Source of the DNA: Senegalimassilia anaerobia JC110
GTDB taxonomy: Bacteria; Actinomycetota; Coriobacteriia; Coriobacteriales; Eggerthellaceae
Assembly: GCF_000236865.1 (NCBI RefSeq)
Contig: NZ_HE611016.1
Coordinates: forward strand, 320,846 to 384,845
DNA: 64,000 nucleotides
Direction of reading: 5' to 3'
The notes beneath the pieces were generated by a model, which searched no databases, was not told the DNA's origin, and saw only the letters and a list, made by a program, of their open reading frames with translations. Below are positions 24,765 through 33,261 of this stretch, piece after piece. Each line of letters starts with the position of its first letter. Within the stretch, counting starts at the first letter, position 1. The translations under genes were made by a program, and so were the position numbers.

Positions 24765-24793
24765 TTGACAATTGGTTTGCCGCGTGCTATTTT
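24765..24793 (+). promoter_or_regulatory. Strong sigma-70-type promoter
   Basis: TTGACA at 24765-24770, a 17-nt spacer, then TATTTT at 24788-24793 preceded by TGC (extended -10). Transcription should begin near 24800, at the 5' edge of the riboswitch. Confidence 0.75.
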
Positions 24794-24797
24794 TCGA

Positions 24798-24870
24798 ATC
24801 GGCAAAATCATCGAAAGGTGATGACGCAAAGCTATAGGGCCTGAAATGGCAGCCAGTTGCACAGTTCCCC
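24798..24870 (+). ncRNA. GEMM-I-like (c-di-GMP-I) riboswitch aptamer
   Basis: The conserved GEMM-I core is visible in order: GGCAAA (24801-24806), a 6-bp stem AUCAUC/GGUGAU capped by a GAAA tetraloop, GACGCAAAGC (24823-24832), UAUAGGGCCU, then AUGGCAGCCAGUUGC. GACGCAAAGC plus the GNRA-capped stem is diagnostic of the class. P3 appears very short, and the 5' strand of P1 would lie at the predicted transcription start, so this is an atypical member or my boundaries are off. It precedes a terminator and the small winged-helix gene, so it probably controls that gene. Confidence 0.75.
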
Positions 24871-24995: not shown

Positions 24996-25328
24996 ATGAC
25001 GACTGAGATGACCGCTGAGACCACAACCGAAATCGATGACGACATCACGCTTGCGGACGGCAAGCGCACGCTGACGAACTCGCAGCTGCTCATCCTGGGC
25101 TTCATCGCCTCGTACGGCGCAGCGGGCTGCTCCGAGTCCAAGCGCGACATCGCAGAAGCGCTGCAGGTCAGCCTGAAGACCGTCGACCGCGCCATCCTGC
25201 GCCTGCGCAAGGAGGGCTTCATCATCTCGGTGGCCCGCTATGCGGAAAACGGCATGCGTCTGAGCAACACCTACCACGTGCCCACGCCGGAGGCGAAAGA
25301 CGAGCAGCTGCACGCGATTGCCGGGTAA
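24996..25328 (+). CDS. Small winged-helix DNA-binding protein, paralogue 2 (riboswitch-controlled)
   Basis: 110 aa. A short acidic Thr/Glu-rich N-terminus (~1-27) precedes a winged helix: LTNSQLLILGFIASYGAAGCSE, recognition region ALQVSLKTVDRAILRLRKEGFI, wing VARYAENGMRLSNTYHV. It matches the protein at 14427-14705 along the whole domain. ATG 24996 follows GGAGAAGG; the longer upstream frame runs into the terminator hairpin and is rejected. It lies 90 nt downstream of a riboswitch terminator, so a second messenger, probably c-di-GMP, should set its level. Targets are unknown. Confidence 0.8.
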   Translation: MTTEMTAETTTEIDDDITLADGKRTLTNSQLLILGFIASYGAAGCSESKRDIAEALQVSLKTVDRAILRLRKEGFIISVARYAENGMRLSNTYHVPTPEAKDEQLHAIAG

Positions 25329-29949: not shown

Positions 29950-30774
29950 TTAGCGGAACGGGGAATCGTCGTCTGGGCCCTTTCGTTCCGCAGAGGCCGA
30001 AGGCCGACCGAAGGAGGCTTCGACGTCGGCACGCCAAAGGTCGCCAAGGGCGTTTTCGGGGCCGGGGCCTGCCGCACAGCCGCCCTGGCATGCGCCGAAG
30101 GCTTCGCCGGGCTGCTGGTTTCCACGCATTCGACGTGCGAAATCAAGGTAGCCCTTGATGCTGTAGTGGTTGGCCCCGTCGGAGGCGAGGGTGTGCTCGT
30201 TGTCGCCGTCGACGGTGCCTAAGTAGCCCTCTTCGACCTGTCGCCCGTGCTTGTCGACGATCACGGCGTACCAGTGGCCGGCCTCGCTTGCGGGCTTGCG
30301 CAGCTGGCAGGAAAGCGTCAGCTTCGCCTCGCCGGGCTGCTGGAAAAAAGCGCCCGCGCGGCGGATGTTCTCGATGCGTGTGCCGTCGAGCCAGAAATAC
30401 AGGAAGGGCGCTTCGGTAGCGTCGGCGAGCGCGTCGTTGTCGTTGCTGTAGACGTAACACACAAGCGCACGGTCGGAACTTTTGCCCAACAGGTCGACCT
30501 CGGATTCCTTTAGCTTGAATTGCACGGTGGTCAATGCACGAAGCCCGTTGCTCATGGAGGCGTCGTTGATGGGCGTTGAGGCGGTTTTCACCTGGAAGAA
30601 GAAGGTTTCGGGGGCTGCTTGCGGGTTCTCGAGCTGCGCCTTCAGGTTGAGCGAGACGACGTCCACTCCCATGTCCGCAGGCGGCCGCACGGCGTCGAGC
30701 CCGTTGCGATACAAGGAGCTGACCAGCTGATATTCGCCGGTGTATCCGTGGTAGAGCAGGTTATAGAAGTCCAT
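29950..30774 (-). CDS. PD-(D/E)XK-like protein, DUF4365-like
   Basis: 274 aa. The N-terminal ~150 residues have the layout of a restriction-endonuclease-like fold: Glu14 in a first helix (GYTGEYQLVSSL), Asp38 in GVDVVSLNL, and QVK at 61-63 (FFFQVKT), as in DUF4365 and related nuclease-like families. The middle is beta-rich (LYFWLDGTRIENIRR). The C-terminal ~60 residues are Gly/Pro-rich and low in complexity. It lies 99 bp after an orphan VirD4-like ATPase on the same strand, with a strong hairpin in the gap. Nuclease activity is inferred from the motif layout only. Confidence 0.6.
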   Translation of the reverse strand: MDFYNLLYHGYTGEYQLVSSLYRNGLDAVRPPADMGVDVVSLNLKAQLENPQAAPETFFFQVKTASTPINDASMSNGLRALTTVQFKLKESEVDLLGKSSDRALVCYVYSNDNDALADATEAPFLYFWLDGTRIENIRRAGAFFQQPGEAKLTLSCQLRKPASEAGHWYAVIVDKHGRQVEEGYLGTVDGDNEHTLASDGANHYSIKGYLDFARRMRGNQQPGEAFGACQGGCAAGPGPENALGDLWRADVEASFGRPSASAERKGPDDDSPFR

Positions 30775-30798
30775 GAGGTTCCTTTCGGATGCGGGAAG

Positions 30799-30828
30799 GA
30801 CGCGAGGCGCCGCCGGTGCGGCGCCTCG
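30799..30828. terminator. Strong 13-bp hairpin without T-run
   Basis: CGCGAGGCGCCGC pairs perfectly with GCGGCGCCTCGCG around CGGT. On the minus strand the following bases are TCCTTCC, so it lacks a true U-run. It lies between the VirD4-like gene and the nuclease-like gene and may be an attenuator, mRNA stabiliser or processing site. Confidence 0.6.
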
Positions 30829-30873
30829 CGTGCGGTTTGCCTGCAGGTTATTGTACCTTGCGGCGGCATTACG

Positions 30874-32289
30874 CTAGGCGGCGTTCGCATCCCCGAAAAG
30901 CTCGAGGTCCTCGGGCCCTAGCTCCTCGAAGTCGAAAAACTCCTGGTCGATGTCGTCCAGCCACATCTCCGTAAGGTCTGCACCCGGCTCGGCCTGCCCG
31001 CAGGCCGCAAGGTCGGCGTAACGCGGATGCTGCTCCAGCTGGTAGGCTTTGTCGCACACGGCCGCATGCCCGCGCTGGAACAGCCACCAGCGATCGGTCG
31101 GCGTGGCAAGCAAACTTGCGGCGGGTTTGTTCGCGCGCAAGCTGAAATAGCGCGCCGTCGCCTCGTCCTGAAACCCCAGGACCAGCTGATGGTCGCAGTT
31201 GCCGATGATCGAGTTCGCCGCCGGCTTGCCGTAGCGCGCTTCCAGCTGGCTGACGGTTTGGCAGACGATGGTGCAGCTGATCTCGCGGCTGCGCGTGACG
31301 GACAGGATGTTGTCGAAGTTCGCCACGTTGAGGTTGGCGAAGTCGTCGAGCATCAGCCGAACCGGCACGGCCAGGCGCCCGTCGGGGGAGCCGTGGTCGG
31401 CGGCATCGCACAGGGACGAAAACGCTTGGCGGATGAAAAGGCTGGTCAGGGGGCGCAAGCTGGTGTCCATGTCGTCGATGGTGACGAACAGCGCGCAGTG
31501 CTTGCGGCCAAACTCGTGGAAGTCCACGCGCCGCGGGCATTGGTAGGCGGCCATGGCGCCGGTGAAGCCCAGCGGCAGCAGGCTCGCCGCGATGATGCCG
31601 ACGATACTTGCGTGCATGCGCTCGGCCCTGATCGTCGTTTGGGCCCGCCGGCGCAGCTTCACGGCGTAGCTGCCGGGATTTTTGCGCTCCAGCTCGTCGA
31701 ACAGACGCTCGGCATGCCCGGAGCAGGCTTCATCGAACACGCGGATGACCTCGGCCATGGTCCGGTCCTGCTCGGGCATCGCCTCAAGGACGTAGGCGAT
31801 GTAGCTGGTCAGATAGTTCGCGGCGGCAAGCGCCCAGAACGGGTCGCTCTCGTGGTCTTCGCGCGGGCAGAGCGCGGAGGCGATGGCGATGATGTCCTGC
31901 TCGGCAGGATGCCCGTCTTGACATCGGATGTGGTCGAGCGGGTTGTACCCCAGCGTGCCGTTCATGCCCACAAAGTCGAGCTGGTCCACTTGGTAACCTT
32001 GTTTGCGCAGGTACGGGGCCATTTCGCGATACAAGATGCCCTTGGAGTCGAGCACGATGTAGGAGCCTTGGGCCTGCAACAGGTTCGGCTTCAGGTGGTT
32101 GCGCGTCTTACCGCAGCCCGAGCTGCCAAGCACGAGCACGTTGTTGCTCAGGCCGCTTCGCCACGTGTCGGTGTCGGCCGTGCGGTTGGCCGTGAGCAGC
32201 ATGCTGCCCTGGTAGGCGCTGCGTTCTGCGGCGCCTGCGGGGTCGGTCGGGGCGTTGGCGGCAAAAGCGGGGGTGTTGTTCTTGAGCAT
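30874..32289 (-). CDS. Orphan VirD4/TraG-like ATPase (type IV coupling protein family)
   Basis: 471 aa. Walker A is GSSGCGKT (55-62) and Walker B is LMLDDFANL (~308-316), with the TraG-typical LVLDSKGILYREM and GFQDEATARYFS. The N-terminal transmembrane helices of conjugative coupling proteins are missing, so it should be soluble or peripheral. An acidic tail ends the protein. No relaxase, VirB4 or other secretion gene is in the window. It starts 12 bp after a ClpP-like gene and precedes a PD-(D/E)XK-like gene. Either a remnant of a mobile element or part of a stand-alone system. Confidence 0.8.
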   Translation of the reverse strand: MLKNNTPAFAANAPTDPAGAAERSAYQGSMLLTANRTADTDTWRSGLSNNVLVLGSSGCGKTRNHLKPNLLQAQGSYIVLDSKGILYREMAPYLRKQGYQVDQLDFVGMNGTLGYNPLDHIRCQDGHPAEQDIIAIASALCPREDHESDPFWALAAANYLTSYIAYVLEAMPEQDRTMAEVIRVFDEACSGHAERLFDELERKNPGSYAVKLRRRAQTTIRAERMHASIVGIIAASLLPLGFTGAMAAYQCPRRVDFHEFGRKHCALFVTIDDMDTSLRPLTSLFIRQAFSSLCDAADHGSPDGRLAVPVRLMLDDFANLNVANFDNILSVTRSREISCTIVCQTVSQLEARYGKPAANSIIGNCDHQLVLGFQDEATARYFSLRANKPAASLLATPTDRWWLFQRGHAAVCDKAYQLEQHPRYADLAACGQAEPGADLTEMWLDDIDQEFFDFEELGPEDLELFGDANAA

Positions 32290-32301
32290 GGTTGCCTCTC
32301 C

Positions 32302-32889
32302 TTACAGCTCGTGGATCACGCGGTCGGCCAGACCGGCTTCGACGGCGGCTTCGGCTTCGAAGTAGGTGTCTTGCGCGGTTAGCTGGAACACCTGGTCAAG
32401 CGTCATGCCGGTGTGCTCGGCGATCACGGCGGCCGTGATGTCGCGGATGCGCATGAGGTCGTCGGCGCGCGCCTTCACGGATAGCGCGCTGCCGCCCATG
32501 GAGCCGATGAGCGGGTCGTGGATCATGACGCGGCTGTGGGGCAGCATGTCACGTCGGTCTCCTGCGACGAACAGCAACGCCGCCATACTGGCCGCCGTGC
32601 CGATGCACACGGTGTGCACCGGGCAGGAGATGGCGCGCATGACGTCGTAGAGCGCAAGCCCCGACTGCACCTCGCCGCCGGGGCTGTTGATAAACAGCGT
32701 GACGGGTGCTTGCGGGTCGCATTTCTGCAGGTGAAGCAGGCAGCGCGCGGCGCAGGCGACCGAGCTCGCGTCGATGGGGCCGGCCAGCTCGATCTGGCGG
32801 TCGGCCAGCATCTGGTCGCGCACGTCGAAGCGCTGGATGCCTTCGCAGGTTTCATGCAGGATGAGTGGGGAATAGGTGGAAACGCACAT
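32302..32889 (-). CDS. Accessory ClpP-like serine protease
   Basis: 195 aa with the ClpP fold and an intact triad by alignment to family motifs: Ser101 in GTAASMAAL, His124 in MIHDPLIG, and Asp174 in AQDTYFEAEAA. The oxyanion region is INSPGGEVQSG. The N-terminal ~25 residues differ from housekeeping ClpP, which forms the gate and AAA+ docking site. No clpX or tig is adjacent; instead the next gene, 12 bp away, is a VirD4-like ATPase. AAAGGA precedes ATG 32889. Related ClpP-like proteins occur on mobile elements and as phage head-maturation proteases; this context fits neither exactly. Confidence 0.85.
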   Translation of the reverse strand: MCVSTYSPLILHETCEGIQRFDVRDQMLADRQIELAGPIDASSVACAARCLLHLQKCDPQAPVTLFINSPGGEVQSGLALYDVMRAISCPVHTVCIGTAASMAALLFVAGDRRDMLPHSRVMIHDPLIGSMGGSALSVKARADDLMRIRDITAAVIAEHTGMTLDQVFQLTAQDTYFEAEAAVEAGLADRVIHEL

Positions 32890-33042
32890 GTTCGATCCTT
32901 TCGAGGGCGCAGGTTACCGAAGACCGCGTGACGAGGCATGGGTGCGCGCTGCCGCCGTGCCGCATTGCGTCGCGCTATCCTGGAAGCGGCGCAGCAGCGT
33001 TGCCGGCCGACGGGGATGCGCAACGCAAAGCTGCGGCTTTCG

Positions 33043-33183
33043 TCATGCAGTAAGCAGCGCGAAGACGCGCTGAGCAAGACGACAGGGCGCAACAAGCCAC
33101 GCTTGCGGTCGCATATCGGCTTCTTCTTCAGTTGTGGTGGTGAAACTTGATGGGCCGATCAGCCTGACGCCGACGTGCGTCAT
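33043..33183 (-). CDS. Candidate 46-aa leader ORF upstream of the ClpP-like gene
   Basis: The ORF starts MTHVGVRLIGPSSF and has AAGGA 8 nt before its ATG, just downstream of a good minus-strand promoter. It contains a Thr/Glu-rich stretch (TTTTEEEAD) and a C-terminal hydrophobic segment. I recognise no family. It may be a leader peptide, a small protein of the cluster, or chance. The remaining ~150 bp to the ClpP start appears non-coding. Confidence 0.35.
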   Translation of the reverse strand: MTHVGVRLIGPSSFTTTTEEEADMRPQAWLVAPCRLAQRVFALLTA

Positions 33184-33230
33184 TTCATCGGTCCTTGAAG
33201 AATAGGGCTTTCGCCCTCGGGTGCATCCCA

Positions 33231-33261
33231 ACTATAGCACAAGCGTTCGGGGTACTGTCAA
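33231..33261 (-). promoter_or_regulatory. Promoter for the ClpP/VirD4-like cluster
   Basis: On the minus strand TTGACA (33261-33256) and GCTATA (33238-33233) are 17 nt apart; TATAGT overlapping it gives a 19-nt spacer. A GGGC-GAAA-GCCC hairpin follows early in the transcript. Confidence 0.6.

Follow-up and report, generated by a model that had tools for sequence, protein, structure and literature searches.

A stand-alone clpP-virD4 gene pair with an attached predicted nuclease gene in Senegalimassilia anaerobia, a candidate VirD4-driven protease of Coriobacteriia

ClpP works with AAA+ unfoldases, as in ClpXP, ClpAP and ClpCP. Motors of the HerA/FtsK type that stand beside nucleases have been proposed as a theme in defence (PMC10853773). 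In the 64,000-nucleotide stretch of Senegalimassilia anaerobia JC110 analysed here (contig NZ_HE611016.1; hereafter the window), a gene for a ClpP-like protease is followed on the minus strand by that of a VirD4/TraG-like ATPase and then by that of a predicted nuclease, all three open and intact and at the place that the preliminary description of this DNA had given. The locus resembles ClpXP, ClpAP and ClpCP in its ClpP fold with an intact catalytic triad and in an ATPase gene that directly follows clpP, at the position that clpX takes in clpP-clpX operons, but differs from them in that the ATPase is VirD4-like rather than AAA+ and that the docking pocket of ClpP is polar or acidic. It recalls the HerA/FtsK capture systems (PMC10853773) in the patchy distribution of its loci and in a motor of the FtsK/HerA superfamily near a nuclease, which here is a predicted one and is found in one clade only; its motor, however, is VirD4-like and its constant partner is a protease. 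That account makes no mention of ClpP, Clp, VirD4 or protease, and the open-access papers searched contained no account of ClpP with VirD4/TraG as a system and nothing under the names TOTE or PDC-M16; the pair, found in some gut bacteria, is apparently undescribed.

As comparison of the sequences shows, clpP and virD4 belong together in a genuine module of two genes that stands alone and has a common history. The distinctive ClpP, counted at E <= 1e-50, was present in 28 of 400 Coriobacteriia genomes, a patchy distribution. Gene maps drawn with a home-made gene caller placed a VirD4-like gene on the same strand as clpP in 29 of 31 mapped Coriobacteriia loci from three families, with no virD4 detected at the remaining two (L083 and L087), and this recurrence bears out the earlier suggestion of a stand-alone system. 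The two genes mostly lie within 230 bp of each other, often at 0-100 bp (12 bp in the window), and 0.9-2.1 kb apart with intervening genes in three loci; the order is clpP-virD4 everywhere except at L090-L092, and damage or a position at the end of a contig affects some of the copies (L028, L029, L084). The genes prfC and cysS-rlmB are recurrent neighbours. Stand-alone proteins were separated from eight housekeeping ClpPs in the ClpP tree and from three conjugative VirD4s in the VirD4 tree, each split with support of 100/100, and both trees recovered the same 12-row clade A, which spans three families.

A second copy of the module is carried by S. anaerobia JC110 itself (L021, G000:C3:116658-120457; VirD4 63% identical), and further copies were found in the cultured species Slackia isoflavoniconvertens and Ellagibacter isourolithinifaciens. 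When 397 genomes from across the phylum were scanned, virD4 matched strongly only in S. anaerobia JC110 itself and in two genomes of the same order. Another module was found beside a prophage in a contig from a viral collection (L169:5962-9667; IMG/VR 2889778758), where ClpP is 53% and VirD4 43% identical; upstream of the pair lies a PDDEXK_2 nuclease gene, and downstream are TOPRIM/DUF3991 genes, whose nearest plasmid relatives are in Subdoligranulum. As this copy is Oscillospirales-like, the range of the module appears to extend past Coriobacteriia, and outside that class the module may be carried on a mobile element. The 50 ClpP matches in viral contigs included just this one true module (L116/L169), and the phage ClpP copies among the matches listed were at most 38% identical. 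Plasmid-borne ClpPs were likewise set aside: of the four inspected, three belonged to clpP-clpX pairs and the fourth, from Arcobacter, had another context.

The clpP-like gene (32302..32889, minus strand) encodes 195 aa with a Pfam CLP_protease match (E 9.5e-49) and the complete triad that the preliminary description had recognised, Ser101, His124 and Asp174 (Ser97-His122-Asp171 in E. coli numbering), which was invariant in 29 of 29 stand-alone homologues. HDP is invariant in the stand-alone proteins at a place where HQP stands in the eight housekeeping ClpPs. By alignment with E. coli ClpP, using a sequence and a list of docking-pocket positions that we take to be correct and a numbering checked against the triad, the hydrophobic pocket on which AAA+ partners dock has turned polar or acidic while the triad has been retained: in the 29 proteins V28 is replaced by E in 25, F30 by E in 17, F82 by A, S or T in all 29, and F112 by E or D in 22. 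Five of the 11 hydrophobic positions lost in stand-alone ClpP fall in the pocket, although it accounts for just 10 of 53 tested positions, an excess over chance (p 0.02). No AAA+ Clp ATPase emerged as the genetic partner of this ClpP; in 29 of the 31 mapped loci that place is held by the VirD4-like gene. An ordinary ClpP was also present in each of the eight genomes checked, and the stand-alone protein may use the ClpX or ClpC of the cell in trans. With the phage head maturation proteases it shares the fold, and PHROGs matches were obtained, but its score to the NCBIfam model for these proteases (101.6 bits) is below the cut-off of 120 and no capsid genes were recognised around the mapped loci.

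The VirD4/TraG-like ATPase gene (30874..32289, minus strand) encodes 471 aa that match the T4SS-DNA_transf domain (E 7e-37) and, just above the cut-off of 250, the NCBIfam conjugative CD1115 family (conju_CD1115, 268 bits). In the window protein 59 residues precede the GKT of Walker A and no hydrophobic N-terminal segment was seen, in agreement with the earlier claim that membrane helices are lacking; in most copies 40-76 residues and in two about 180 precede it, none of them sufficiently hydrophobic. Walker A (GSSGCGKT, residues 55-62; 32104..32127, minus strand) is kept in all aligned copies reaching that far. Walker B (LMLDDF, residues 312-317; 31339..31356, minus strand) reads LDDF in 27 of 27 stand-alone copies covering it versus DEF in three of three conjugative ones. 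The protein is of the same ATPase family as conjugative VirD4/TraG of the CD1115 type, with Walker A in common, but differs in the missing membrane helix, a DD rather than DE Walker B, a separate clade, a ClpP partner and the absence of genes of a type IV secretion system. An IGF-type docking loop on the motor was considered and rejected, since xGF occurs in some copies only (LPLGF in the window) and is not conserved.

The third gene (29950..30774, minus strand) encodes 274 aa with a conserved core of about 215 aa, where most relatives end; the window protein carries about 60 extra low-complexity C-terminal residues (29950-30140). No family of Pfam, PADLOC, NCBIfam or PHROGs was matched. The nuclease layout proposed in the preliminary description stood as regards the residues, E14, D38, Q61 and K63 being invariant across 12 homologues, and less well as regards the fold: the AlphaFold model is of only moderate quality (mean predicted local distance difference test, pLDDT, 64), and its best PDB matches, which include the SPARDA effector nuclease DREN and then DpnI and EcoRV, are weak with E-values from 3e-3 up. 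Owing to the invariant residues and these weak model matches the protein is called a predicted PD-(D/E)XK nuclease. DREN, also called DUF4365 (PMC12205087), is its best structural match, but the window gene differs from it in having no Argonaute or APAZ partner and no DUF4365 match by sequence. The nuclease gene was found in 10 of the 400 Coriobacteriia genomes, nine of which carry the distinctive ClpP (Fisher p 1e-10, with kinship ignored), and on plasmids only as a remote Nostoc match with no clpP or virD4 near. The check proposed earlier, whether clpP and the nuclease-like gene stay beside the VirD4-like gene in Coriobacteriia without conjugation genes, came out positive for clpP and only in one clade for the nuclease; clpP and virD4 are the core, and the nuclease is a linked, exchangeable part.

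Other accessory genes are similarly variable. Many clade A loci carry the nuclease, F4 or both, F4 being a helical third protein of about 190 aa whose model (pLDDT 85) had no match in the PDB, and more divergent loci carry F4-related proteins. In L085, L089, L092 and L094, which are among these divergent loci, the pair is followed downstream by the gene of an SF1 (superfamily 1) helicase that matches DUF2726 weakly and scores in PADLOC much as Mokosh proteins do, and a PDC-M16B-like protein (PADLOC score) with a TOTE-type S1 domain is encoded in L089 and L093. The second copy in S. anaerobia (L021, region G000:C3:109000-128900) has both F4 and the nuclease and is flanked by AbiD-like (Abi_2), HipA and PDC-S01-like genes. 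A motif of the form [SPV]L[DES][ED]R[ILV] was observed near one end of otherwise unlike accessory proteins (L021, L029, L077, L080, L081, L089, L093, L094, L030, L084, L169). This SLDERI-like motif is found in 16 of 27 accessory proteins versus 44 of 444 others, a count that is overstated because the pattern was drawn from the same proteins afterwards; it is a possible docking signal.

Upstream of clpP, the promoter-like sequence TTGACA-19-TATAGT (33231..33261, minus strand) was found by direct reading and missed by a scan for 16-18 bp spacers. The promoter proposed earlier is supported by a sister genome, where 65 bases of this region show 75% identity and both TTGACA and the spacing are retained, and is weakened by its long 19 bp spacer. 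The possible 46-aa open reading frame of the preliminary description is not conserved and is probably due to chance. Elsewhere in the window, a c-di-GMP-I (cyclic di-GMP) riboswitch (24791-24864, plus strand; 60.9 bits) lies upstream of the gene for a 110-aa HTH_36 helix-turn-helix protein (24996-25328, plus strand).

The window holds an intact copy of the stand-alone pair together with a linked gene for a predicted nuclease. Our preferred reading, held tentatively and at a little short of an even chance, is that the locus encodes a VirD4-driven ClpP protease wired to nucleases and most likely serving defence. A soluble VirD4-like ring would take the place of ClpX and feed the ClpP chamber with substrates, so that the pair would act as an ATP-dependent protease whose motor is not of AAA+ type; we infer both the contact of motor and protease and such proteolysis. 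Substrate choice would fall to fast-evolving accessory proteins, and the effector that the protease controls or works with would be the nuclease linked to it, a predicted PD-(D/E)XK enzyme here and a helicase-nuclease elsewhere; the most likely purpose would be defence against invading DNA. A role in defence is plausible in view of the associated nucleases, helicases and candidate-defence genes, and it is in keeping with the patchy presence of the module and the spread of one clade over three families. The broader proposal is more doubtful, namely that a ring of the VirD4/FtsK superfamily rather than of AAA+ type feeds ClpP in a new class of self-compartmentalised ATP-dependent protease, around which a modular defence system would be built whose recognition proteins and nucleases can be exchanged.

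Several observations weigh against our reading. No motor-side docking motif was conserved among the aligned VirD4-like copies, and the motor, having the ATPase domain of a DNA-transfer protein, may act on DNA as its substrate. The window has no F4, which sister loci do carry; the protein could be provided in trans from the second copy, L021. Apart from a weak mad8 match, the core genes hit none of the known defence families, and the loci often lie among housekeeping genes rather than in clear defence islands. The correlation of the ClpP and VirD4 distance matrices (r 0.64, with none of 2000 permutations as high), which itself speaks for the reading, is uncorrected for species history.

The main alternative, which we regard as unlikely though worth serious consideration, is DNA capture in the HerA/FtsK style, in which the motor would grip invading DNA, perhaps recognising relaxases like its conjugative ancestor, and pass it to the nuclease, while ClpP would destroy DNA-bound proteins; the motor would then act on DNA and not on ClpP substrates. 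The match of the ATPase to the DNA-transfer domains of coupling proteins, the linked nuclease and helicase-nuclease genes and the proposed defence theme of such motors (PMC10853773) all agree with it, but it leaves unexplained why ClpP rather than the nuclease is the constant partner and why the ClpP docking pocket has changed. Rather improbable, in our judgement, is regulated proteolysis for the physiology of the cell itself, for instance to control a stress regulator, or the nuclease if this is a toxin, without a part in defence. Chromosomal sites next to housekeeping genes, an intact protease and the lack of a defence-family match for most accessory proteins would fit this reading, whereas the patchy presence in Coriobacteriia, a deletion in a sister species, one clade that spans three families and the exchangeable nuclease and helicase genes do not.

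That deletion was found at the same prfC site in sister genome G097 (L027:9748-10831), where the promoter region runs straight into virD4 at about codon 136 and both clpP and the P-loop have been lost. The module is dispensable, as this deletion remnant indicates, and it is the copy of the sister genome, not that of the window, that has decayed. The preliminary description had offered a decayed mobilisable element as its alternative, and a leftover of a mobilisable or conjugative element now seems very improbable, being largely refuted by the conservation pattern: although the motor is related to conjugative proteins of the CD1115 family and the Oscillospirales-like copy adjoins TOPRIM/DUF3991 genes typical of such elements, the genes are kept intact across three families and changes are shared in both the ClpP and the VirD4-like proteins. 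The window contains no relaxase, as had been noted, and the sole Pfam relaxase match of the genome, which has a conjugative VirD4 close by, falls on contig C2, the window being part of contig C3. A search with AAA_10 for VirB4 gave nothing above cut-off, and no relaxase, VirB4 or other type IV secretion gene was recognised around the approximately 30 mapped loci. Homologues are therefore not confined to full integrative and conjugative elements, the genes do co-occur elsewhere, and the earlier view that neither conjugation nor head maturation explains them is upheld. Chance association of unrelated genes at an insertion hot-spot, suggested by the several loci near prfC or cysS-rlmB, is possible for some accessory genes but is refuted for clpP and virD4 by the same pair and strand at different sites and by the agreement of the two trees, and is scarcely credible overall.

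If our preferred reading of a VirD4-driven ClpP protease is true, a ring of the FtsK/HerA/VirD4 type can drive a proteolytic chamber, and proteolysis would be linked to nuclease-based defence. The pair is small, intact and present in cultured species, which brings direct tests of motor-protease contact and of a role against phages or plasmids within reach.

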